A stretch of DNA of 59,131 bases from a virus: IMG/VR virus record IMGVR_UViG_3300035698_018276, positions 1 to 59,131 of that record. One strand, written 5' to 3'. The stretch's first letter is position 1. Each line of letters starts with the position of its first letter. The position numbers were made by a program, and so were the translations under genes. This document shows positions 1,797 to 51,417 of this stretch, in pieces. The notes below the pieces were generated by a model that made no database searches, was not told where the DNA came from, and worked only from the letters and a program-made list of their open reading frames with translations.

Positions 1797-2970
1797 TAAA
1801 ATTACTTCTACTATCCAAATGCCAGGGTGGCAAAAAGGGTATGAACTCGACCGGCTTAGATCTTACTCCGCACCGTTCAAGACTCAGCACAAGCCCTTGA
1901 CGTTTGGCGCTTTCGGACTGGTCAAGGAGCGCGACATTGCCGACGCCCTTTCAAAAAATTGCCTGGTCTGGACCGGCGACCCGCCGAGCGCGGTGGCGAT
2001 TTTCTCAGCGATGCAACGCGACTCCGAGCGGGCCGATTTCGCGGGCCGTCCCATTTGCCTCAAGGCCCCGGGCTTTATGGTTAAATCATTCGCGGCAACG
2101 TCCGAGAGTTCCGCGAATAAATTACTTGGCGCTATCCTGCAAAAAACAACCGCGCCCATCTACCTCGAAATCTTTGAAGAAGATACAATTGCCAAGGCGG
2201 CGGCGGCTCAAGCCGGGTTTGAATATGTGGCGACGAGGGTTTCAGCGGGCAGCGAAATCAAGGGCATCTATTCGGTAAACTGTTCTGTCGATTATGAGAC
2301 GCACCCGCCGGAAGATTTGGCGGTGCTGACTGATTTGGGCCCGGCTTATTTCAACGAAGAAAAGCTGGCAGCCGTCCGGTCTGAATTGGAAAGGGCGGGC
2401 GAGTATTGGGCACAGCATTACTCAAGCTATAACAAACGAAAAAGCTGGACGTCCTTTGCGCTGCGGGGGTTTTCCGACGACCCTATGTTCATAATCAAGC
2501 CCGCCGAAATGTCGAAAAAATGGAAAGCGGAAAACAGCGAAATGCTCACCGAGCGGCCCCGCTGGACTCGCTTGGCTGGGCGGTTTCCAAAGACGATGCG
2601 CATTGTTGAAAGCCTCGGGTTTGAATTTGACCGGCTTAGATTTATGCGACTGCACTCGAAAGATGGCGAGTTGTCCCGGCACGCCGATATAACCGACCGC
2701 GAGGCCGGGGTCCAAGACGAGAAAATTACCCGGCTTCATGTGCCGATTGATACCAGCGACAAGGTTACATTTTATGGCTGGACGCTTCGCGGCGAGGAAA
2801 TCGCCAAAAACTTCAAGCCTGGTTCACTTTTCTACCTTGATCAGCGAAAGCCGCACCGGGTTACAAATGCCGACCCCGGGCTTGATAGGGTTCACCTGGT
2901 GATGGACGTAATAGGCAATGGCTCGGTGCGCGGCATGATCCGACAGGCCGAGGGCCATGGGAAAGTTTGA
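1780..2970 (+). CDS. Aspartyl/asparaginyl beta-hydroxylase-like 2OG-Fe(II) oxygenase with extra N-terminal domain
   Basis: 396 aa from a GTG overlapping the methylase end by 17 nt; the ATG at 1819 is an alternative start. The C-terminal third (about residues 285-385) has the double-stranded beta-helix signature of Asp/Asn hydroxylases: SRHADI for the first Fe ligands (about residue 300), PHRVTN for the distal His (about 357), and an Arg shortly after (RVHLVMD) for 2-oxoglutarate. Residues 1-170 form a separate domain with a GNAT-like end (AAAAQAGFEYVATR), not firmly assigned. It overlaps the next gene by 14 nt, so the two are likely co-translated. The substrate is unknown; a modified base or an amino acid are both possible. 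Confidence 0.75.
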   Translation: MGKLNSKITSTIQMPGWQKGYELDRLRSYSAPFKTQHKPLTFGAFGLVKERDIADALSKNCLVWTGDPPSAVAIFSAMQRDSERADFAGRPICLKAPGFMVKSFAATSESSANKLLGAILQKTTAPIYLEIFEEDTIAKAAAAQAGFEYVATRVSAGSEIKGIYSVNCSVDYETHPPEDLAVLTDLGPAYFNEEKLAAVRSELERAGEYWAQHYSSYNKRKSWTSFALRGFSDDPMFIIKPAEMSKKWKAENSEMLTERPRWTRLAGRFPKTMRIVESLGFEFDRLRFMRLHSKDGELSRHADITDREAGVQDEKITRLHVPIDTSDKVTFYGWTLRGEEIAKNFKPGSLFYLDQRKPHRVTNADPGLDRVHLVMDVIGNGSVRGMIRQAEGHGKV

Positions 2971-3691
2971 CCCGCGCCGCTGGCTTGATCAAGAACCCAT
3001 AATAGAAAAGCACGGCGGAAAGACGGTCGTGCGCGATGATTTTGTCGAGGGCGGGAGTAAACTTCGCTTTCTACCTTTCGTGGTTGGTGATGCCCCTGAG
3101 ATTGTGTTCGGCGGGCCTTTCTGTGGGGGAGCTCCTTTTGCGCTTTCCGTTCTCGGGAAATACAGCGGCCAGAAAATCACGCTGTTTTATGCCGCGAGAA
3201 AAATATTACATGAACGCCAGAAGCTTGCCCTCAAGAACGGCGCTACGATTTATCAGGTCCGGCCCGGCTACATGACAAATGTTCAAGCCAAGGCCAGGGC
3301 CTATGCCGAAAAAGTCGGGGCGCTCTTTTTGCCGCTCGGCTTTGATGTTCCCAAAGCGGTCGACCCTTTCACCGAGGCGATACGCCGGGTGCGGGCCAAG
3401 GTTGGTGATCCGGATCAAGTTTGGTGCGCCACCGGCTCAGGAATGCTGGTGCGGTGCCTGGCTAATGTATTTACAAACTCGGAAGTTATGGGCGTTGCGG
3501 TCGGCCTGAAATCAAGGCACAGCGCCCAAGATTTTGCGCCGAATGTTACCCTGAGAAATCACCACCTTGATTTCGCGCAGCAAACAAAAATTGAAGCGCC
3601 GTTTCGAAGCTGTCCAAATTATGACCGAAAGGCTTGGGAGTATTGCCAGGCCCGGTCAAAGGGCAGCGTGTTATTTTGGAACGTGCTATAG
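2957..3691 (+). CDS. PLP-dependent enzyme, fold type II (D-cysteine desulfhydrase/ACC deaminase-like)
   Basis: 244 aa. The segment EGGSKLRFLPFVV near residues 29-42 matches the GGNK-R-LE motif of ACC deaminase and D-cysteine desulfhydrase, with the Lys at about 33 as the probable PLP Schiff-base residue. Later segments GGPFCGGAPFALSVLG and WCATGSGMLVRCLA fit the substrate- and phosphate-binding loops of this fold. It is shorter than free-standing family members (300 or more aa), so the fold is compact or partly remodelled. It starts inside the preceding oxygenase gene. Likely role: amino-acid chemistry paired with that oxygenase. The actual reaction is not deducible. Confidence 0.75.
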   Translation: MGKFDPRRWLDQEPIIEKHGGKTVVRDDFVEGGSKLRFLPFVVGDAPEIVFGGPFCGGAPFALSVLGKYSGQKITLFYAARKILHERQKLALKNGATIYQVRPGYMTNVQAKARAYAEKVGALFLPLGFDVPKAVDPFTEAIRRVRAKVGDPDQVWCATGSGMLVRCLANVFTNSEVMGVAVGLKSRHSAQDFAPNVTLRNHHLDFAQQTKIEAPFRSCPNYDRKAWEYCQARSKGSVLFWNVL

Positions 3692-6209: not shown

Positions 6210-7745
6210 ATGGGCTGGTTAAACGAAGCAACGGCTACAATTTGGCGAGGCTTGGCACCACAAGCTGGCGAGCCATCGCCAACCGATGACTACTGGTACG
6301 GCCCATCGCCAACGGGCAACCACGCGGGCGTTAGAGTCACGCCCGACATAGCCCTCAAGGCGTCGGCTGTTTATGCTTGCGTGAAAGTCTTGGCGGAAAC
6401 GGTTGCCAGTATGCCGATGCGAATCTTCAAGGAAGATAAAACCGGCGAAATGCACCCCGCACCAAACCACCCGCTTGATGAATTGCTACGCTTTCAGCCG
6501 AACAAAAATCAAACCGCCGTTGAGTTTTGGGAAATGATGATCCTGCACGCGGCGCTTCGGGGCGGCGGGTACGCTGAAATCATACCGGGGCCTCGCGGCG
6601 CGGTCGATCAATTAAAGCCTATTCATGCCGACCGGGTTGTCACACAGACATTGCGCGACGGTTCTTTGCGGTTCAAAGTTACGCACCCGAAAACCGGCGG
6701 GACTCGCACCCTGTTGCAAGAAGAAGTTTTTAGAATCCCGGGAATGTCGTCCGATGGCGTGAGCGGCTTGCGGGCCGTTGACCTGGCATCCGAGGCCATT
6801 GGCCTAGGCATGGCCGCCGATGCCTACGCGGCTCGGGTTTTCTCAAATAAATTGAACATGGGCGGGTTCTTAGTCCACCCGGGCAAGCTGTCCGAGTCGG
6901 CACAAAAGAATCTCGTACAAGGTTTGATGGAGCGGTTTGCTGGCATTCGCAATGCGCACCGCCCGATGGTTTTGCAAGAGGGCATGAAATTTGAAAAGGC
7001 GTCGATGACCGGGCGGGAGTCTCAGTTGCTTGACGCCCGCAAGTTTCAAATTCTTGAGATTTGTCGGTTCTGGCGCATACCGCCTTATATGCTCGGCATT
7101 AGTGAAAATCAGCCCCGCGCCAACGTCGAACAACAGGCCCTTGATTTGGTCAAGTATACATTGCGCCCATGGGTGCGGCGCATCGAACAAGCCGTGCGGC
7201 GCGACCTGATTGTTGCAAAAAATACCTATACGGCAAAGTTTAACATGGAAGCGTTGTTACGCGGCGATTCCAAAGCGCGTGCCGAATATTTTTCGGCGGC
7301 GCTCGGCACCGGCGGGTCGCCCGCGTGGATGACTCCTAATGAGGTTCGCCGGTTGGAAAACATGAACCCGAGAAAAGAGGCTCACGCCGACGCTCTTGCC
7401 GTTGGCACTAATCCAAACAGCGAGCAAGCCGGAAGCGGGCAAGGCACCGCCCAGGCCGACAAGTTAGTCAACAAAGAAGTCGCGGCGGTCCGTAAAGCGA
7501 TGATGCGGTTTGCAAGCGATGATGGGGCGTTCAAAAAATACATTGAAGCTTTCTACGGCGGGCACGTTAGCTGTGTGGCATCTACCCTGGGTATCGACAA
7601 AGATATATCCCGGGTGTATTGCAAGCACCAATGCGAAGCCGTGCTGGCCAGCGACGATGTTCTCGCGCTTCTCGAAATTTGGGAGACTGAACTGGCGTCC
7701 GAAATTGCGGCAACCTTAGAAAAACATGGAGTGTCAAATGAATAA
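6210..7745 (+). CDS. Portal protein (HK97 family)
   Basis: 511 aa. Typical portal segments are visible: VYACVKVLAETVASMPMRI near residue 55, the stem region, and the FQILEICRFWRIPPYMLG block near residue 280, characteristic of HK97-like portals. RBS GAGGA lies 7-8 nt upstream. It forms the dodecameric DNA gate at one capsid vertex. The C-terminal extension after about residue 400 is Ala/Gln-rich and then helical, longer than the core family. The stop overlaps the protease start. Confidence 0.95.
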   Translation: MGWLNEATATIWRGLAPQAGEPSPTDDYWYGPSPTGNHAGVRVTPDIALKASAVYACVKVLAETVASMPMRIFKEDKTGEMHPAPNHPLDELLRFQPNKNQTAVEFWEMMILHAALRGGGYAEIIPGPRGAVDQLKPIHADRVVTQTLRDGSLRFKVTHPKTGGTRTLLQEEVFRIPGMSSDGVSGLRAVDLASEAIGLGMAADAYAARVFSNKLNMGGFLVHPGKLSESAQKNLVQGLMERFAGIRNAHRPMVLQEGMKFEKASMTGRESQLLDARKFQILEICRFWRIPPYMLGISENQPRANVEQQALDLVKYTLRPWVRRIEQAVRRDLIVAKNTYTAKFNMEALLRGDSKARAEYFSAALGTGGSPAWMTPNEVRRLENMNPRKEAHADALAVGTNPNSEQAGSGQGTAQADKLVNKEVAAVRKAMMRFASDDGAFKKYIEAFYGGHVSCVASTLGIDKDISRVYCKHQCEAVLASDDVLALLEIWETELASEIAATLEKHGVSNE

Positions 7746-9300
7746 ACTGCGACAGCTACGGCGCGAACTTCGACAAATGGTTGGCCGCGTTTGCGGTTTT
7801 CAATTGCTCGACGGCTTCGGCGCGACATTAATCCCCGCCATTGAAAAGATTATGCGTGGCGAGCGTATGACCGACCCTGATTTTTGCTCGGCCTTTGAAG
7901 GGTCGGACAATTCGATGGAACACCACGTTGCCTCGGCGCAAGCGTTAGCCACGCCGACAATCATTCCCGCCGGGCGCGGCGGCAAGGCCACGGCCCTGGT
8001 ATCGGTTCGCGGCATGGCCCTATATGACGTAGAGTTTCAGCCCTTTGCATTTTCAACTTTACATCTGGCGAGTGTCATTACATCGCTGGATAACGACCCA
8101 GAAATTGGTTCGATTGTTCTGGAAATCGACAGCCCGGGCGGAACGATTACCGGATTGCCGGAAGCCAGCGATGCAATATTCAGGGCCCGCCAAAAAAATC
8201 AGGTGGTTGCAATTGTGAACCCCTTGGCGGCATCGGCGGCATACTGGATTGCCGCCCAGGCAAGCCAAGTCATTGCTGTGCCTACCGCACAAGTCGGCTC
8301 GGTTGGTGTTTTCATTCTTCATGCTGAGTGCGCCGCGATGTTGGCCGACCAGGGTATCAAGCCCACGTTTATCTTTGCCGGGGAAAACAAAGTTTCCGGC
8401 AATCAATTCGAACCGCTTGCCGACGAGGCCCGCGAGCATTTACAGGGACAGGTCGATACGATTTACAACTCGTTTCTGAAAGCCGTGGCGAAAGGCCGAG
8501 GAACAAGCGTTCAAAAGGTTTCGGCTGATTTTGGTCAAGGCTTTTCGTTCATGGCCGCCGAGGCCAAGTCGCGGGGCATGATTGACAAAGTGGCAACCTT
8601 GCCGCTGGCCCTGAAAGCCGCCGGGATTAATTTTCAAAATATCCAAACCGACCGGGCCCGGATTCTTGGCGAGGAAATCGCCACCGAGGACGAGGCACCG
8701 GAACAGCCCTCGGCAATCACATACGCCAAGACCGGCGAAACGCCAGGCTGTGAAACGCTCATGGTTATTGATGCCGATACAGGGCATGAGATTCCGGGCG
8801 TCACTGAGGTTGATACCGAGAAAGGGATTGTCCTTGCCCTGGCCTATGATGGCAAGGCGTCGGTCATTTGCGACAATCACTCGGACGGTTGCCACACTTG
8901 CGAGACATTGGAATTCCCGGGCGAGCATATCCGGCTTGAAAGCCTCGACGGTAATTTCAAAATAATCCAGCGCCCGGAAGGTGAGACGGTTGCTTTATCC
9001 AAGCGGGGCGACAGGGTTTTTGCCCTAACCGATTGGCCACAAACAATTCAAATCACTGAGGAATCGGCGGACCAATTGAATGACCATGACGAAAACGTGG
9101 CCGGTAAGCGCGTTGAGATTATAGCCGAAAACGGCGGCGCGGCTTATGAGTTTGTTTGCCGAGATATTCGCGGCAACTGGACTTGCGAGAAAATTTCTAG
9201 TAATTATCAGCCAGCACCCGAGCCCGAGGCCGACGACGAGTCGGACCCAACGGCGGCAGATAAAAGGCGACGTCGATTGGCCCGCCTTAATCTCGGGTAA
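7738..9300 (+). CDS. Prohead protease, S49 (SppA/ClpP-fold) family, with long C-terminal extension
   Basis: 520 aa. The start chosen is the ATG at 7738, preceded by GGAG and overlapping the portal stop; the ATG 12 nt earlier lacks a ribosome site. The peptidase core spans about residues 75-290: DSPGGT oxyanion region, nucleophile Ser in PLAASAAYWIA (about 165) and general-base Lys in GENKVSGN (about 216). After residue 300 comes an extra region of about 200 aa with clustered Cys/His (CDNHSDGCHTC) and an acidic then basic tail, which is not part of the protease. It probably matures the capsid. The extension might act in scaffolding or as a second structural product. Confidence 0.92.
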   Translation: MNKLRQLRRELRQMVGRVCGFQLLDGFGATLIPAIEKIMRGERMTDPDFCSAFEGSDNSMEHHVASAQALATPTIIPAGRGGKATALVSVRGMALYDVEFQPFAFSTLHLASVITSLDNDPEIGSIVLEIDSPGGTITGLPEASDAIFRARQKNQVVAIVNPLAASAAYWIAAQASQVIAVPTAQVGSVGVFILHAECAAMLADQGIKPTFIFAGENKVSGNQFEPLADEAREHLQGQVDTIYNSFLKAVAKGRGTSVQKVSADFGQGFSFMAAEAKSRGMIDKVATLPLALKAAGINFQNIQTDRARILGEEIATEDEAPEQPSAITYAKTGETPGCETLMVIDADTGHEIPGVTEVDTEKGIVLALAYDGKASVICDNHSDGCHTCETLEFPGEHIRLESLDGNFKIIQRPEGETVALSKRGDRVFALTDWPQTIQITEESADQLNDHDENVAGKRVEIIAENGGAAYEFVCRDIRGNWTCEKISSNYQPAPEPEADDESDPTAADKRRRRLARLNLG

Positions 9301-9413: not shown

Positions 9414-10937
9414 ATGCGAAATAACAAAACAATATTTGCGGTTCTTGGCTCCATTGCCATCGCCGCAATTTTTCTCGTTGTATCGGGGGGTGACGCGACA
9501 GCGGCTTATGCTGGCACGAACTTTGCCTTGACCGATTTCAGCGGTCCAGCCGGGGCCAGCATGGCCCTTATCGGGTTGGGTCGCATCAAGGAATTGCGCG
9601 ATAAAAAAGCGGCCCTATTGAAAGAGGCCGACGGCTTATCCGCAAAAGTTGACGACGAAGATGCTGACGAGGACGAGCAAAAACGGCTTGACTCTTTGCT
9701 GGCAGACGACGGCCCGATTGAAAAGGTGAACAAGTCCATCAAGCGCGAAGAAAAGTTGATGGAAGAACGCCGGTCAATGGAAGCCGTTGATGTCGAAAAC
9801 GACGACACCGACGACGAAGCCGCCGACAAGATTACCGCAACCGCTAAAAAGCCCATCGTTGGGTTTGATAATTTTGGCGAACAACTCCAAGCGATTGCAC
9901 ACGCCGGACAGCGTGGCATGACTATGGAGTCATGGGACAGTCGGCTTCACGACTTGTATCAACCTGGCGGCATTGAAGCGGCCAGCGGTGCAAGTTCCTC
10001 GGTTCCTTCTGAGGGCGGGTTCTTGGTTCAACAAGACTTTGCCGCACCGATGATTGAGTCCATGTTCGAAGGTGGCGAAATTCTCAGCCGCGTCCGGCGT
10101 GTTCCGATTTCGGCAAATTCCAACGGCCTCAAGATTCCGGCCCTGGATGAAACCAGCCGGGCCAATGGCTCACGTTGGGGCGGTGTTCAGGTCTACTGGG
10201 CCAACGAGGCCGAAAGTGTAACGGCCGCCAAACCTAAATTCCGTGAAATGGATTTACGTTTGAACAAGCTGTTCGGTGTTGGGTACGCGACGGAAGAATT
10301 GCTTGCCGACGCGGTTGCCCTTGAGTCGATTATGTCTCGCGCATTCACGGAAGAAATTACTTTCAAAACCGAGGATGGCGTTGTCAATGGTACGGGCTCC
10401 GGCCAACTGTTGGGCATGGTCAATTCTGGTGCGTTGGTTTCGGTTTCCGCTGACTCTGGTCAGGCCGCCGATACCATTTCGGCCACCAATGTCTTGGGAA
10501 TGTTCAGCCGCTTGCCGCCTCGCTCTATGGGCCGGGCTGTTTGGTTGATCAACCAAGATGTTCTGCCGCAACTCTGGACCCTTACTCTGGGGTCAGGGAC
10601 CGCCGTTGTTCTGTTGTATCGCCCACCCGGAGTTAATGGCCCAAATGCCAACAGCCCGGCTGGCACCCTCTTGGGTCGTCCGGTGATTCCGGTCGAGTAC
10701 AGCGCAACGCTCGGCGACCTCGGCGACATTGTCCTTTGCGACCTTGATCAGTATTTGATGGTCGATAAGGGCGGCGTTAAGCAGAACGCTTCCATGCACG
10801 TCCGATTCCTGTTCGATGAAATGACGTTCCGTTTCATCTACCGGGTTGATGGACAGCCCATGCAGCGGTCGGCGATTACGCCCGCCAACGGTACCAACAC
10901 CCTGTCGCCTTACGTTACTCTGGCGGCTCGCGCTTAA
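9414..10937 (+). CDS. Major capsid protein (HK97 fold) with coiled-coil delta domain
   Basis: 507 aa. Residues about 55-125 are a charged coiled coil (delta/scaffold domain), followed by the linker GASSSVPSEGGFLV, where HK97-type proteins are normally processed and the mature shell domain begins. The rest shows the usual P and A domain pattern, ending RVDGQPMQRSAITPANG. Residues 1-31 form a signal-peptide-like hydrophobic segment, odd for a capsid protein. An internal ATG (codon 50, before ALIGLGRIKELRDKKA) would give the usual family N-terminus. The hairpin directly before 9414 favours the long form. Confidence 0.94.
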   Translation: MRNNKTIFAVLGSIAIAAIFLVVSGGDATAAYAGTNFALTDFSGPAGASMALIGLGRIKELRDKKAALLKEADGLSAKVDDEDADEDEQKRLDSLLADDGPIEKVNKSIKREEKLMEERRSMEAVDVENDDTDDEAADKITATAKKPIVGFDNFGEQLQAIAHAGQRGMTMESWDSRLHDLYQPGGIEAASGASSSVPSEGGFLVQQDFAAPMIESMFEGGEILSRVRRVPISANSNGLKIPALDETSRANGSRWGGVQVYWANEAESVTAAKPKFREMDLRLNKLFGVGYATEELLADAVALESIMSRAFTEEITFKTEDGVVNGTGSGQLLGMVNSGALVSVSADSGQAADTISATNVLGMFSRLPPRSMGRAVWLINQDVLPQLWTLTLGSGTAVVLLYRPPGVNGPNANSPAGTLLGRPVIPVEYSATLGDLGDIVLCDLDQYLMVDKGGVKQNASMHVRFLFDEMTFRFIYRVDGQPMQRSAITPANGTNTLSPYVTLAARA

Positions 10938-10976: not shown

Positions 10977-11002
10977 CAATTTGCTGAGAAGGAGTGGAAA
11001 CC

Positions 11003-11476
11003 ATGCAAGGTTTCAACATTGCGGAACAGGGGCACGTTGTAAATATACTTCCCCCTGTTGATATTGCTGGTGGCGCGAATGGCGACGTTTTCTCTATGAG
11101 AAACTATTCGCACGCGACCATCATCGTGCAAGTCGGCGTTAGCGCGGCGGCCTTCACGAAGATTCTTGTAAACGAATGCACTAGCTTCGCTGCGGCGGGC
11201 GCGACGGCAATCGCTCACAAAATCTACAAAGAAGAAACGGCTGCGGGCGATACGCTCGGGGCCAAGGTGGCGGCACTGGCCGCTGGCGAAACCCCGACGG
11301 CCAACGATAATGTTATGTACATTATCGAACTGGACGCCCGGGAACTTTCCGACGCTTCACAGTTTGTGCAGCTTTCGCTTACCAATGCGTCCGGCAACAG
11401 CGTAATCGCTTCGGCAATTGCGATTTTGTCAGGCGCTCGTTTTGGCAACGCGGAATCGGCGACGGAAATTGTCTAA
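11003..11476 (+). CDS. Putative capsid decoration/structural protein
   Basis: 157 aa. The start is ATG 11003, with AAGGAG eight bases upstream. An Ala/Thr-rich beta-sheet protein (HATIIVQVGVSAAAF, LDARELSDASQFVQLSL) without charged coiled coils, placed directly after the capsid gene between two hairpins. Position and composition suit a head decoration or stabilising protein made in many copies, but the family is not firmly recognised. Confidence 0.65.
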   Translation: MQGFNIAEQGHVVNILPPVDIAGGANGDVFSMRNYSHATIIVQVGVSAAAFTKILVNECTSFAAAGATAIAHKIYKEETAAGDTLGAKVAALAAGETPTANDNVMYIIELDARELSDASQFVQLSLTNASGNSVIASAIAILSGARFGNAESATEIV

Positions 11477-11548: not shown

Positions 11549-11731
11549 ATGGAAGTCAGACAATTAGTCGGACCATACGCCGGACAGATCATCGAAATGA
11601 AAAAAGAAGATGCCGAGAGGTGCCTGAAAACCGGCACGGTGCAAATGCCTAAATCCCGATACCAGGCCAAAGCATCCGCGCCAAAAAAGAAACCGGCCAG
11701 CGGCAAGAAAATCAACGCCGCAACGGCGTAA
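11549..11731 (+). CDS. Small basic hypothetical protein
   Basis: 60 aa. The first half (VRQLVGPYAGQIIEMKKEDAERCLKTG) looks like a compact SH3-like or beta-hairpin unit as in short proteins next to phage capsid genes. The second half is Lys/Ala/Pro-rich and probably disordered. RBS GAAGGGAAC. The stop codon overlaps the next start (TAATG). Function unknown. Confidence 0.7.
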   Translation: MEVRQLVGPYAGQIIEMKKEDAERCLKTGTVQMPKSRYQAKASAPKKKPASGKKINAATA

Positions 11732-12504: not shown

Positions 12505-13328
12505 TCCGCATATTTATTGGCTGCGCACCAAACCACGAGGACGCCGAGAGTCAAGCTGTCCTCGAATATTCAATCCGCCGGGGCACCGACGAGCAAGTTG
12601 AAATCACTTGGATGAAATTATCGCGCTCGCCTAAAAGCCCATTCTATTCAAATCCAGAAAACGGCGAGGGCTGGCGCACCAATCTTTGGCCCACCCCTTT
12701 CAGCGGCTTTCGCTGGGCCGTCCCGGCGCTGTGCAATTTTCAGGGCAAAGCGATTTACATGGACTCGGACGTTATTGTCATGCGCGACATTGCCGAGTTG
12801 TGGGATACGCGGTTCAAGCCGGGCAAGTCTGTAATTTCAAAAGATGCGAACCGCTTTTGCGTGTCGCTTTGGAATTGCCAACAAGCCGTCAAGTTTCTCT
12901 TGCCACTTGAAAGGATAAAGAAAGACGACGGACACCGGGCTTGCATCGAAGTTATGATGGGGCACCGAGCCGCCGTTCAAGAATTTGAGATGAACTGGAA
13001 TTGCCTAGACGGCGAGAACTACGCCGAATTGAGCGACCCAAATATCGGCGCGATTCATTATACGTCGATGCCGCACCAGCCGCACATACCGCTGGCGACA
13101 AAGCGCCTGGCCCGCAATAGTAAAAAACATTGGTTTGATGGCAAGCCCACGACTCATTGGCGGCCCGATATGATTGAACTGTTTAACAAAAAGCTGGACG
13201 CGGCGGAACAAAATGGCTTTCACGTTCTCGATTATGAGAAAGACGAACCTTTCGGCGATTATGCCAAGGGCTCGGTCGCATCATTGCAAGGGGCGATGCC
13301 ATCGTGGGGCCATCGGTTGTCGGCATGA
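12501..13328 (+). CDS. Glycosyltransferase, GT8-like
   Basis: 275 aa. The GT-A fold is indicated by an N-terminal beta strand (IRIFIGCAPNHED) and the metal-binding DXD in IYMDSDVIVMRDIAELW (about residue 93). The later segment GAIHYTSMPHQPHIP supplies the His typical of GT8-type enzymes. It has no signal peptide or membrane helix, so it is cytoplasmic. It starts at ATGA overlapping the previous stop. The donor and acceptor sugars are unknown. Confidence 0.82.
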   Translation: MIRIFIGCAPNHEDAESQAVLEYSIRRGTDEQVEITWMKLSRSPKSPFYSNPENGEGWRTNLWPTPFSGFRWAVPALCNFQGKAIYMDSDVIVMRDIAELWDTRFKPGKSVISKDANRFCVSLWNCQQAVKFLLPLERIKKDDGHRACIEVMMGHRAAVQEFEMNWNCLDGENYAELSDPNIGAIHYTSMPHQPHIPLATKRLARNSKKHWFDGKPTTHWRPDMIELFNKKLDAAEQNGFHVLDYEKDEPFGDYAKGSVASLQGAMPSWGHRLSA

Positions 13329-13978
13329 TCAATGTCGTTTGCGTAAGGGCCGGGAAAAAATACAAATTCCACTATGTTGAGAAATTGCGGAACATGGTGG
13401 GCCGCTTTCTGAAAACCGAATACCGATTTATTTGCCTGACAGACCAGCCCGAGCGGGCCGAGGGCATCGACTCAATTGATATTACCGATTACAAACTTGA
13501 TGGCTGGTGGGCCAAGATGGCCCTATTCGACCGCAGCTTGATTGAGGGGAAAATACTTTACCTCGATTTGGACACTGTGATCCTTGGCAACCTGGGGTCG
13601 CTCGCGGCTTTGGACCTGTATTTCGGAATTTGCGAAAACTTTACCTACCTTGCCGGGCATGATGATTGGCCGTGCCGGTTCGGGTCTTGCGTGATGGTGC
13701 TTGAAGATGGGTTCGGCACTAAAGTCTGGGAAACTTTCAATAGGGACCGCTTCCGGTATATCCGCGACAATCCGAAAGGCGATCAACAGGCGATTGAAAA
13801 AATACAAATCAACGCCCACTTTTTGCAAAACCAATTGCCTGAGAATTATTTGATTGACCGGCGGGTCGTACAGGCCAATCCGGACAAGCCGCCACCCGGC
13901 GCGGTGGTGGTTAATTTCGGCGGAAGCTATAAGCCGAACACTTGCAAGGTTGCGTGGGTAGAGAAAGCCTGGCAATGA
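13325..13978 (+). CDS. Second glycosyltransferase of GT-A type
   Basis: 217 aa, started at the ATG overlapping the preceding TGA. ILYLDLDTVILGNL (about residues 76-89) provides the DXD, preceded by DGWWAKMALFDRSLIEG and followed by a GDQQAIEK acceptor-site block. It is shorter than and divergent from the neighbouring GT8-like enzyme, suggesting a different linkage rather than a recent duplication. It is part of the coupled cassette. Confidence 0.8.
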   Translation: MINVVCVRAGKKYKFHYVEKLRNMVGRFLKTEYRFICLTDQPERAEGIDSIDITDYKLDGWWAKMALFDRSLIEGKILYLDLDTVILGNLGSLAALDLYFGICENFTYLAGHDDWPCRFGSCVMVLEDGFGTKVWETFNRDRFRYIRDNPKGDQQAIEKIQINAHFLQNQLPENYLIDRRVVQANPDKPPPGAVVVNFGGSYKPNTCKVAWVEKAWQ

Positions 13979-14026
13979 TTGTCGGGCACCAATGTAAAAA
14001 GAATTTGCCAGCGTGGAGTACATAAA

Positions 14027-14659
14027 ATGAACGAGGGACGACAAAGAGTTTTAGACGACCCAAAATTGCAGAAAAGACAAAAGGCCCCGACGCTTGATGG
14101 CATACGGGACGATCACAAAAACAGATACAGTTTTGCCGCCAATTATTTTAATAAGAACAACGTGACCGGCCTTGTGCTGGACGCTGGGTGCGGTTACGGA
14201 TATGGCTCGTTTATCTTGGCGTCGACCGGGCTTGATGTTCTCGGCGTTGATCTGGACCCGGACGCCATTGATTTCGGAAATGAACATTACGCTCTACCGA
14301 ATATCACCAGGCGGCAAGGCGAAATTGTCGACGTTGTAGATAATGTCCAGGCAATCGCGGCGTTTGAATTTATTGAACATATTGAGCGCCCAGAATTATT
14401 TTTGGAAAAGCACGTCAAGAACGGGGCGCTTATCGTTGGATCAGTCCCAAATGAGGAAACCGTACCGTTCAAGCCGGACGTTTATCGCTGGCATTATCGG
14501 CACTACACGCCGACCGAACTGGATTGCTTATTGCAAGGGTGCGGTTACAAAGTTGAGTTTCTTGGCGGCCAGGTCGGCAAGGTTGGGTGGGACGGCGTTG
14601 TCGTGGGTGGTTGCAAAGACCCTCGGACAATTGTTTTTGCCGCCCGGCCACCCCGATGA
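14027..14659 (+). CDS. SAM-dependent methyltransferase (class I, small-molecule/glycan type)
   Basis: 210 aa. Motif I is VLDAGCGYGYGS (about residues 47-58), the acidic residue after beta 2 is VLGVDLDPDAI, and EFIEHIERPELFL resembles the UbiE/COQ5-like post-II region. The start is ATG 14027 with GGAG ten bases upstream; the longer frame back to 13979 starts TTG with no ribosome site. It probably methylates a sugar made by the flanking transferases. Confidence 0.83.
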   Translation: MNEGRQRVLDDPKLQKRQKAPTLDGIRDDHKNRYSFAANYFNKNNVTGLVLDAGCGYGYGSFILASTGLDVLGVDLDPDAIDFGNEHYALPNITRRQGEIVDVVDNVQAIAAFEFIEHIERPELFLEKHVKNGALIVGSVPNEETVPFKPDVYRWHYRHYTPTELDCLLQGCGYKVEFLGGQVGKVGWDGVVVGGCKDPRTIVFAARPPR

Positions 14660-15474
14660 AAATTACAGCTTTCCTTCCTGAGTGGGATCAAAAGGCCCGG
14701 ATGATTTTGAAAAACCTGGCCCTCGGGATTCCGGGCGCTGATTGCGCCATACTCGGCGAATATGTGCCGTGCGACATTGCCATCATCTTCGGTATGGTGA
14801 AGGAATCTTATGAGCCGACCTGGAAAAAGCGACCAATCCTTAAAAAGCACGCGGGCCGCCGGTTGCTGGTTGTTGAGTCGGCGTTCCTGAAACGCGGGGA
14901 ATATTATCAGGTCGGGTGGGGCGGCTACGCCGGGCACGCTGATTTTGTTTCGGATATTGTTTCGATTGATCGGTGGCAAAAAATCGGCATAAAAGCCAAG
15001 CCCTGGCAACGCCGCCCCGACGGCGCTGTTGTCGTTTGCGGGCAATTGCGGCGCGATACTCAGGTTCAACACGTTGATCACGCCGCGTGGTGCCGCGAGG
15101 CTGTAAAGTTTTATCAGGCCGCCGGGGAAAAGGTGGGGTTTCGACCGCACCCGAAAGAGCGCGACCCGGACGTTTACGGTGTCGACAAAAATATTACGAT
15201 TACCGGAAAGATGTGGCAAACGCTTGAGTTAGCCAAGTGCCTCGTGACATTTAATTCAACCAGCGTTGTCGACTCGATTGTCGGCGGGGTTCCGGCCATC
15301 GCTTGTGATGAAGGCTCAATTGGCTGGGACGTTGCGGCGCACGGCCTCGGGGCCGAATTGATTTACCCCGACCGCGATTGCTGGTTGGCCGGGATTGGCT
15401 ACAGTCAATGGACGCTTGGTGAAATGAAATCGGGCGAGACTTGGCAACATCTTACCAGCCGAGACGGCGGATGA
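14656..15474 (+). CDS. GT-B-like polysaccharide biosynthesis protein
   Basis: 272 aa from the ATG overlapping the previous stop. The C-terminal half contains KVGFRPHPKERDPD and then CLVTFNSTSVVDSIVGGVPAIA, as in capsule-type (KpsC/KpsS-like) or CDP-glycerol transferase-like GT-B enzymes, in which an Arg-Pro-His-Pro loop binds the nucleotide-sugar. The N-terminal half is less conserved. The coupled position supports a role in glycan assembly. Confidence 0.7.
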   Translation: MKITAFLPEWDQKARMILKNLALGIPGADCAILGEYVPCDIAIIFGMVKESYEPTWKKRPILKKHAGRRLLVVESAFLKRGEYYQVGWGGYAGHADFVSDIVSIDRWQKIGIKAKPWQRRPDGAVVVCGQLRRDTQVQHVDHAAWCREAVKFYQAAGEKVGFRPHPKERDPDVYGVDKNITITGKMWQTLELAKCLVTFNSTSVVDSIVGGVPAIACDEGSIGWDVAAHGLGAELIYPDRDCWLAGIGYSQWTLGEMKSGETWQHLTSRDGG

Positions 15475-15980
15475 TTTTCGGGATTAAAAATAAATACCTT
15501 TATGTTTGCCCGCAAAAAACCGGCACGGCGGCGGTCCGGGCCTGGCTAAGAAATCATTACGGCGGCGAGGAAGTAAACCGATACCACGGACAGGATATTT
15601 GCGAGCCCTGGCGCTCGGCAAAACTGCGATTTATGACAGTCAGAAATCCATACGAAAGGATATTCTCACTTTGGAACCATCGCCAAAGCCAGGGCAACGG
15701 GATGAAGATTGACGAGTTGTGCGAGCATTATTCGGAGCTCGGTTTTAGCTACTGGTCATTTTGGGTTCGATGTGGGTGTAAATTATTTTTAAGGCTTGAG
15801 GACATACAAAACGAGGTAAAGCGGCTACCATTTTATAAGGCCGGGACGCCGCCGGTGGATCAGGTTCGGGTGGCATCAAATAAGCCAGCGGCTTCGTTTC
15901 ACGATTACTTTGGCGGAAAAGAAAAACAAAAAGTAAGGGACACGTTCAAAAATGACTTCGAATTCTTCGGATATAAATAG
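15471..15980 (+). CDS. PAPS-dependent sulfotransferase
   Basis: 169 aa. The 5'-phosphosulfate loop is CPQKTGTAAVRAWL (residues 13-26, Lys16 catalytic), and the 3'-phosphate motif is VRNPYERIFSLW (57-68, Arg58 and Ser66). The C-terminus ending DTFKNDFEFFGYK is typical of carbohydrate (type 2) sulfotransferases. It is compact and lacks a membrane anchor, unlike Golgi enzymes. It overlaps the GT-B-like gene by 4 nt and the next gene by 29 nt. Known reaction: sulfate from PAPS to a hydroxyl or amine, most likely here on a sugar. An APS kinase for making PAPS is encoded at 51040. Confidence 0.87.
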   Translation: MIFGIKNKYLYVCPQKTGTAAVRAWLRNHYGGEEVNRYHGQDICEPWRSAKLRFMTVRNPYERIFSLWNHRQSQGNGMKIDELCEHYSELGFSYWSFWVRCGCKLFLRLEDIQNEVKRLPFYKAGTPPVDQVRVASNKPAASFHDYFGGKEKQKVRDTFKNDFEFFGYK

Positions 15981-16659
15981 CCCGCGAAACCCCGCGATAA
16001 AGTGGGGCCAGGTCGATGAAATCGCCGACCGGGTTTTGATCGTTGCCGCCGGGCCATCGGCTGGCCAATTACAGCGCGGCTTTATCTCGGATGCTCATAG
16101 ATCTGGCGCGTTTATCATTGCCGTAAACGCCGCGATTGCGCGGGTCGATACTGCCGACCTGGTTTTCACGGTTGATTTTGATGACAGAACCCGGGGCCTG
16201 TATATGAACGCGCCACACCGTATCAAGAAAGTGGCCGCCGTTCCCGGCAATATCGGCACCCCAGGGGCCCGGTTAAGCCACCACAGGACGCCGCCACCGG
16301 CTGGCATGACCTATTTGCTAAGGCTTGAGGGCGACGGTCCCTTGGGCTCAGAATATGGGCTGAGTGACAATCCTGAAGTGATCCATACCGGAAACTCGGT
16401 GTGGGGCGCTCTTGGCTACGCCTGGCTTATGGGAGCCCAGAAAATTGCCATCATCGGGCTCGACGGAACGAACCGACCGGGCTGGCCTGATATGCACCAT
16501 CCTCGGGACTTTTCCCACTTGCCCGCTTTGTTTGCCAGCGCCATGCCGCAAATCATAGACCGCGGTATTCGTGTTATAAATGGAAATCCGAAAAGCAAAA
16601 TTGTGTGCTTTGAAACTCGGACGCCGCTCGATACCATTGACTGGATTAGTAAGGCGTGA
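15952..16659 (+). CDS. MptE/DUF115-like protein, second copy
   Basis: 235 aa. VLIVAAGPSAGQLQRG (about residues 28-43) parallels CIAGGPSVS in the 11731 gene, and AQKIAIIGLDGTNRPGW with an acidic-His cluster repeats the C-terminal signature. Together they bracket the glycan cassette. It starts within the sulfotransferase gene. It is probably a Maf-like transferase or an activating enzyme; substrate unknown. Confidence 0.7.
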   Translation: MTSNSSDINSPRNPAIKWGQVDEIADRVLIVAAGPSAGQLQRGFISDAHRSGAFIIAVNAAIARVDTADLVFTVDFDDRTRGLYMNAPHRIKKVAAVPGNIGTPGARLSHHRTPPPAGMTYLLRLEGDGPLGSEYGLSDNPEVIHTGNSVWGALGYAWLMGAQKIAIIGLDGTNRPGWPDMHHPRDFSHLPALFASAMPQIIDRGIRVINGNPKSKIVCFETRTPLDTIDWISKA

Positions 16660-16691: not shown

Positions 16692-17363
16692 ATGTCGCTT
16701 AACCGCACCGTCGACCCAACAATAAACCCGGTTACTCAAGCGGAAATCTGGGCCCATCTACGAGTGCCGCTTACCGGCAGCCCATTAGCGCCAGCCGACT
16801 CAGCTTATATCGACACGATTGTCTCGGGCATTGTTGGTCTTATTGATGGTGCCGACGGCTGGCTTGGCCGGGCGCTCGTAAAACAAACCTGGGAACTGCG
16901 GCTTGATGGGTTCCCCGGCCATCGAAATCCCGAGCGCGGGTATCAGGGCCCATACTTTGCCGCCGATATGATCCGTCTGCCATTGCCGCCCTTGCAATCG
17001 GTTACGTCAATTGCCTACATCGACAGCGACGGCAATTCTCAAATAATGTCGAGTGCGCTTTACACCGTCGATACATACAACGCACCGGGCCTGATTGTTC
17101 CCATTTTCGGGGAAAAATGGCCCACGACTCGGCGGCAAATCAATGCGGTCACAATCACTTTCGTTGCGGGCTATCCCGGCGACGGCGCGAGTCCCGAGGC
17201 CGGGCTTGCCGATAATGTTCCGGACCCCATCAAGGCCGCTATAAAGTTGTTGGTGGGCCACTATTACGACCACCGCGAGGAAGTCCAGCCGGTCGAAATG
17301 TTTGAGTTGCCGCAAGGCGTACACGCGTTGCTTTCATCGTTTCAAATTCACTCATTTTCCTGA
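16692..17363 (+). CDS. Head-tail connector (gp6-like)
   Basis: 223 aa. It carries the pattern of phage gp6-like connectors: TQAEIWAHLRVP, helix, DSAYIDTIVSGIVGLIDGADGWLGRALV, central beta region, then VPDPIKAAIKLLVGHYYDHREEV. It binds below the portal to form the neck. The RBS AAAGGA follows the parS-like site. Confidence 0.9.
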   Translation: MSLNRTVDPTINPVTQAEIWAHLRVPLTGSPLAPADSAYIDTIVSGIVGLIDGADGWLGRALVKQTWELRLDGFPGHRNPERGYQGPYFAADMIRLPLPPLQSVTSIAYIDSDGNSQIMSSALYTVDTYNAPGLIVPIFGEKWPTTRRQINAVTITFVAGYPGDGASPEAGLADNVPDPIKAAIKLLVGHYYDHREEVQPVEMFELPQGVHALLSSFQIHSFS

Positions 17364-50889: not shown

Positions 50890-51053
50890 TTTTTGCGTTC
50901 CTTCTTTGGTTTGGCAAGGCCGCCAACGCCCCGGCTTTCATCCGGACCGCCGCCGCCTGGAAAATTCCCGCTCGCCTCGATTTTCTTATAATGGCCATGC
51001 TTGCCGGTGATCAGGGCCCAAATAAGCAAAAGTATTGTTTTAATCATTTTCAT
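50886..51053 (-). CDS. Small single-pass membrane protein
   Basis: 55 aa from ATG 51053. A hydrophobic helix (MIKTILLLIWALITG) with a Gly/Lys-rich tail (GGGGPDESRGVGGLAKPKKE). Overlaps both neighbours (4 and 14 nt). No further clue to function. Confidence 0.62.
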   Translation of the reverse strand: MKMIKTILLLIWALITGKHGHYKKIEASGNFPGGGGPDESRGVGGLAKPKKERKK

Positions 51054-51417
51054 TTGATCGCCCCGGCTTGACGTGGATTTCAGGGGAACGGGGTGGCTCG
51101 TAGGGGTTTTTATCTGAGGGCTTGGCCCCATCGGGCAAGTAAATGAAATTGCACCCACAGATTTTTTTGATTTCGGCGCGTATTATTTCGGTCGGCGCAA
51201 TGACGGAAACCAGGATACAAAAGCCCTGTGCCTCAAATATTTGGGCGAGGCGGGCCACCCTGAAACATTGCTCGGCCCTGTCCTCGATAGAAAACCCAAG
51301 CCCGGGCCATATCTCGCGCATGGTGTCGCCGTCGAGCCTGATTGTATTGTTGCCGCGTAAGGAATTTGACAGCCTGGTTTTCCCCGCGCCAGTGTTTCCG
51401 GTAATCCAAAAAATCAC
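51040..51417 (-). CDS. cysC: Adenylylsulfate (APS) kinase
   Basis: 125 aa. Walker A WITGNTGAGKTRLSNSLRG (residues 4-22), the LDGD motif (IRLDGDTMREIW, about 28-36), LGFSIEDRAEQCFRVARLAQ and VSVIAP are the APS-kinase landmarks, and the ending NPYEPPRSPEIH matches CysC. It is short against the usual 200 aa: the segment between VSVIAP and NPYEPP is reduced. It phosphorylates APS to PAPS. The encoded sulfotransferase at 15471 would consume the product. Confidence 0.85.
   Translation of the reverse strand: MIFWITGNTGAGKTRLSNSLRGNNTIRLDGDTMREIWPGLGFSIEDRAEQCFRVARLAQIFEAQGFCILVSVIAPTEIIRAEIKKICGCNFIYLPDGAKPSDKNPYEPPRSPEIHVKPGRSNEND

Follow-up and report, generated by a model that had tools for sequence, protein, structure and literature searches.

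What does a sulfotransferase-like gene do within the head gene block of a bacterial virus, and from where would its sulfate donor come? The window analysed here, a complete virus record from IMG/VR (59,131 bases), is an HK97-like siphophage in which we recognised genes for the small and large terminase subunits, portal, protease, major head protein, head-tail adaptor, head closure, tail terminator, major tail protein, tape measure and a J-like fibre. An initial annotation had placed a PAPS-binding sulfotransferase at 15471, overlapped on both sides by glycosyltransferase-like genes, had joined it to a distant APS kinase as a two-part sulfation route and had considered such a system rare, with the target of sulfation marked as inference. 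The features of the head block on which the question turns are the following, all on the plus strand:

9414-10937, +, major head protein (phrog_10), bounding the block on the left
10994-11476, +, 160-residue protein adjoining the capsid gene and found in most capsid-related contigs
11549-11731, +, small open reading frame of 60 residues at the block's left edge, conserved in the related contigs L002 and L003
11731-12504, +, glycosyltransferase-type protein by Pfam and PHROG (phrog_4603, annotated as alpha-2,3-sialyltransferase; MptE-like), with a homologue at the same position after the capsid gene in L003
12501-13328, +, glycosyltransferase family 8 (Glyco_transf_8, 27.6 bits, cut-off 24.3)
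13304-13978, +, glycosyltransferase (phrog_1962, E 1.6e-27)
13979-14659, +, SAM-dependent methyltransferase (profile match)
14656-15474, +, weakly glycosyltransferase-like protein (DUF6716, E 0.0017; no PHROG), in ATGA overlap with the sulfotransferase gene
15471-15980, +, predicted compact PAPS-dependent sulfotransferase of the Sulfotransfer_2 type, 169 residues (Pfam, profile, AlphaFold model and fold matches)
15952-16659, +, weakly MptE-like protein (phrog_2111 / phrog_4603), overlapping the sulfotransferase end by 29 nt
16692-17363, +, head-tail adaptor (phrog_442), bounding the block on the right

The sulfotransferase frame opens with an ATG at 15471, where the ATGA (15471-15474) joins its start to the upstream stop, and its own stop ends at 15980, the downstream frame beginning 29 nt inside that end. 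Both PAPS-binding motifs that had been reported are present, PQKTGT at P14-T19 and VRNPYERIFS at V57-S66, with R58 and S66 eight residues apart. Particularly, K16 in the 5'-PSB loop and the R58/S66 pair of the 3'-PB site are what we take to be the donor-site residues expected of the sulfotransferase family. Sulfotransfer_2, a family of carbohydrate sulfotransferases, matches in Pfam at 26.6 bits against a cut-off of 22, the aligned part being residues 50-71 only. Viral homologues were gathered by a degenerate DNA pattern and by a profile scan, and 23 sequences were aligned; a leave-one-out profile of the 22 homologues, from which the window protein was excluded, scores that protein at 107.4 bits (E 6.5e-30), compared with 7.6 bits for the next-best frame of the window and 9.8 bits for the best of 2000 shuffles. 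The similarity is partly built in, since the pattern scan used both motifs, but the profile match nevertheless spans the whole protein. The window protein keeps every residue that is near-invariant in the alignment (K16, H39, F54, R58, N59, P60, R63, S66, E110, D162 and Y168). In addition, heparan sulfate 6-O-sulfotransferase is matched at the sequence level by the viral profile, and the alignment of this enzyme's LHADW stretch to the H39 column makes H39 a candidate base.

Structure prediction, proposed earlier as a check, agrees with the assignment: the AlphaFold model (pLDDT 87.7, pTM 0.82) has a sulfotransferase fold, and its top fold matches in the PDB are nearly all PAPS sulfotransferases, with weak to modest E-values (best 0.012). 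Among the viral models of BFVD the matches reach a probability of 1.00 and E-values down to 2.6e-6, and include proteins of phages phiRSL1, SIO1 and ACG-2014f. Viral sulfotransferases are not rare and occur in some cultured phages, which qualifies the earlier description of such a system as rare. Close relatives of this particular protein were not found in single-protein scans of viral and bacterial contigs, nor did tblastn give a match in 50,697 phage records, and 385 genomes from the class of a Rhizobiales relative yielded a single distant true homologue (L084). Another match, in L085, was discarded as chance, its frame overlapping another gene. Taken together, profile, conserved residues and model make it near certain that the product belongs to the class of PAPS-type sulfotransferases, for which catalysis is predicted.

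The seven genes between 11731 and 16659 are tightly packed, with several ATGA-type overlaps, and are of glycosyltransferase type with one methyltransferase around the sulfotransferase. They are flanked by the major capsid gene on one side and the head-tail adaptor gene on the other, a linkage of glycosyltransferase genes to head genes that is characteristic of a virion glycosylation cassette. The location inside the head block and the presence of a sulfotransferase in a glycan cassette are in agreement with the initial annotation, as are the overlaps on both sides; the upstream gene, in turn, is only weakly glycosyltransferase-like, and the MptE-like match of the downstream gene is weak. In this regard, homologues of the upstream protein (14656-15474) occur near a sulfotransferase in viral contig L100.

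We kept 80 capsid-protein relatives from IMG/VR, with identities up to 64%. The corresponding interval in these relatives is short or filled by other genes, L003 retaining a phrog_4603-type gene, and neither a sulfotransferase nor an APS kinase was found in any of 43 related records; for the most part, then, the block has the look of a lineage-specific insertion. Among ten genes lying between capsid and adaptor in the relatives, the only Pfam families recovered were MptE-like (L003) and beta-helix (L046). The 160-residue protein beside the capsid gene is a candidate acceptor.

At the left end of the window, we also observed by eye a ParB-like frame (42-758), a DNA methyltransferase-like frame with an SPPY motif (798-1796) and, in the C-terminal part of a long frame at 1780-2970, a resemblance to Asp/Asn hydroxylases of the 2-oxoglutarate type that found no match in PDB or PHROG. 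A tRNA-Ile(GAT) is called at 749-824, between the first two frames, and a frame matching phrog_7093 ('threonine dehydratase') lies just ahead of the terminase genes (2957-3691).

Glycan context recurs around the sulfotransferases of other viral contigs, and head linkage recurs in some of them. In L092, the closest relative found, two tandem copies lie between terminase (TerL) and portal. Other copies lie near GT25 and a methyltransferase (L112), near GT90 (two copies, L121), or near a GT-D-like protein and an NAD epimerase (three copies, L109). The sulfotransferases of L099 and L100 are near GT8-like genes with sugar-nucleotide enzymes, are not clearly head-linked and have mostly replication and recombination genes as neighbours. 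L092, L109, L121 and L117 each carry more than one sulfotransferase gene (two or three), arranged in tandem or in close proximity.

The second element of the proposed route lies about 35 kb away, on the opposite strand and in a different module, and the two genes are unlinked in the window:

51040-51417, -, lid-less APS-kinase (CysC)-like protein of 125 residues (Pfam APS_kinase, structure model), the proposed PAPS supplier

Pfam APS_kinase gives this protein 64.7 bits against a cut-off of 21.1, and the NCBIfam apsK equivalog gives 66.1 bits, below its cut-off of 138.7. The model (pLDDT 89.7) has an APS-kinase fold, all 50 of its nearest PDB structures being APS kinases at a TM of about 0.8, in accordance with the kinase claimed originally. 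The P-loop, LDGD, GLGFSxEDR and NPYEPP motifs are retained. About 24 residues of the lid (the RDxKGLYKKxRxG segment) and the C-terminal helix are missing; the lid is also missing in close relatives, and a scan revealed a family of such lid-less kinases in other phage contigs at 41-51% identity.

Does a contig that carries a lid-less kinase also hold a sulfotransferase of any subfamily? In a first scan, 9 of 10 distinct kinase clusters had one on the contig, compared with 0 of 30 capsid-related controls (p 4e-8); enforcing the family cut-offs left 6 of 10 (p 5e-5). Three of the nine partners (L143, L149, L151) are weak profile matches that draw mainly on motifs, and PDB sequence searches with those of L149 and L151 returned no match. 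In a second scan, where whole-record and local profile hits were combined, a sulfotransferase accompanied 12 of 20 new kinase clusters (10 of 18 after removal of two lid-bearing ones) and 0 of 43 controls, the same local profiles giving no hit in 80 control loci. All these counts refer to clusters at 90% kinase identity, without tree correction and from records that are mostly fragments, and the controls are contigs of one capsid lineage rather than random phages. The partner sulfotransferases fall into different subfamilies, and therefore functional coupling is favoured over shared descent of a pair.

The arrangement of several of these loci is in line with this notion. In L144, the portal and major head protein (7659-8870) are followed by a mini-CysC (8909-9283), a Sulfotransfer_1 gene (to 10118) that matches solved sulfotransferases in sequence, and two virion structural proteins. 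In L155, the order is Sulfotransfer_2, UDP-glucose dehydrogenase, mini-CysC and a Sulfotransfer_3-type gene that begins within the end of the kinase gene, followed by genes for neck, major tail and tape measure proteins. The kinase of L147 is fused to a nucleotidyltransferase, and a Sulfotransfer_1 gene adjoins a terminase gene. A full-length CysC stands directly beside a sulfotransferase in L171, L183, L197 and L200, and lid-bearing and lid-less kinases showed no difference in having a sulfotransferase nearby (p 1.0, by a crude lid pattern and a Sulfotransfer_2-type profile only). L116:1493-2943, where some 200 bases separate a full-length cysC from a sulfotransferase, was left out of the counts, this being the end of an isolate-derived viral record and probably host DNA. 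The co-occurrence check suggested at the outset thus went in favour of the two-part route, to the extent that close lid-less relatives mostly occur on contigs that also carry a sulfotransferase, in many cases adjacent to it and in L144 beside the capsid gene; the missing lid still counts against it. We consider coupling of the kinase to the sulfotransferase, as a putative donor supplier, likely.

Of 118 loci with phage CysC-like kinases, 45 have a small HxGH nucleotidyltransferase close to the kinase or fused with it (L171:9333-11004, L183, L147:9668-10414, L153, L257 and L259, among others), compared with 0 of 80 controls, and triple runs of CysC, sulfotransferase and nucleotidyltransferase exist. 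The nearest solved structures of this nucleotidyltransferase are NMN adenylyltransferases. The window, which has kinase and sulfotransferase, lacks this gene. It is conceivable, if speculative, that phages hold a dedicated miniaturised system for sulfate activation and transfer, in which the HxGH nucleotidyltransferase (possibly an ATP sulfurylase) would join the lid-less CysC and a set of sulfotransferases that can replace one another, frequently next to capsid genes, to make sulfated virion glycans.

These findings allow us to propose, with a probability of about 0.5, that a glycan built by the phage on one of its virion proteins is sulfated late in infection, from a PAPS supply which the phage itself boosts. 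During late expression, the glycan assembled by the cassette would be short and probably methylated, with the major capsid protein and its 160-residue neighbour as candidate carriers, and the PAPS-dependent, carbohydrate-type sulfotransferase predicted at 15471-15980 would place sulfate on that glycan. The mini-CysC would boost PAPS by phosphorylating host-made APS. As to the parts of this model, a glycan is quite probably the acceptor, and gene order gives the virion somewhat better than an even chance of being the target; the strengths attached to these two points, to the enzyme class and to the donor coupling are our judgements.

The same enzyme could instead act on a host surface polysaccharide or LPS, for instance to block superinfection or alter adsorption. 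LPS sulfotransferases exist in hosts (Sinorhizobium LpsS; PMC12445080), and the sulfotransferases of L099, L109 and L150 lie among sugar-nucleotide and O-antigen-type genes rather than head genes; the position between capsid and head-tail genes in the window, L144 and L155, together with the proximity to terminase or portal in L092 and L147, accords with expression late in infection alongside the virion proteins and renders a host target rather unlikely. The match to a 6-O-sulfotransferase, the glycosyltransferases next door and the carbohydrate substrates of the family likewise make a small molecule, tyrosine or nucleic acid an improbable acceptor, even if sulfotransferase folds serve many acceptors. 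For phage sulfotransferases, nucleotide or protein modification has indeed been proposed (PMC10829341).

With regard to the donor, the sulfotransferase might use host PAPS alone and the kinase serve another purpose, such as nucleotide or NAD salvage. We first held the two to be unrelated, given the absence of a lid and the NMNAT-like domain that goes with the kinases of L112 and DLP6, and dropped this view after the co-occurrence results. Related kinases are fused or adjacent to the NMNAT-like nucleotidyltransferase, and CysC was found in 12 of the 14 bacteria and archaea used as controls, so the host may supply PAPS; however, sulfotransferases of several subfamilies are far more frequent on kinase contigs than on controls and the kinase fold is closest to APS kinases, which leaves an unrelated kinase doubtful. 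APS kinase is absent from most sulfotransferase-bearing viral contigs, and a kinase that usually comes with a sulfotransferase, but not vice versa, would fit a sulfotransferase that also runs on host PAPS and a kinase acting as an optional booster. Decay or loss of catalysis, finally, is what might be suspected of two proteins shorter than the textbook enzymes, one of them encoded at 46.5% G+C against 53%; since every near-invariant residue is retained, the frames are free of stops, the models are confident and the short forms recur as families, we regard it as highly improbable.

Phage sulfotransferases have been reported as auxiliary metabolic genes (phrog_3347, in Synechococcus phages, and gp5.1 of Roseobacter phage SIO1) with a function stated as unclear (PMC10580990). 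The window enzyme is like them in fold and PAPS motifs and differs in being compact, in having no tblastn match in the phage records searched and in its capsid-linked glycan cassette. Virion glycosylation is known from mycobacteriophages Che8, Corndog and Myrna (Freeman et al. 2023, cited in PMC12363180), whose phage-encoded glycosyltransferases act on capsid and tail proteins; as far as that account goes, their gene order is unlike that of the window and sulfation is not described for them, while glycosylation by the window cassette is predicted. The phage kinase shares the P-loop, LDGD, GLGFSxEDR and PYExP motifs and the fold with cellular CysC and PAPS synthase, unlike which it is without the lid segment and C-terminal helix. 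Phage cysC, a member of the same enzyme family, has been reported as an assimilatory sulfate reduction gene, 'not validated' (review PMC12713726), whereas its co-occurrence with sulfotransferases suggests a role in sulfation rather than assimilation. A search of the open-access literature returned no paper that links cysC of phages to their sulfotransferases.

That phage enzymes glycosylate virions has been recognised only recently, and both the sulfotransferases and the cysC of phages have so far been filed under sulfur metabolism; their coupling and their place beside capsid genes offer a directly testable alternative. From the recurrence of the pair in unrelated viruses, sometimes right by the capsid gene, it seems that certain phages may decorate their virions with sulfated sugars. 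If this is true, phage cysC in metagenomes would have to be read differently, and charged sugar coats would join the known chemistry of virions.
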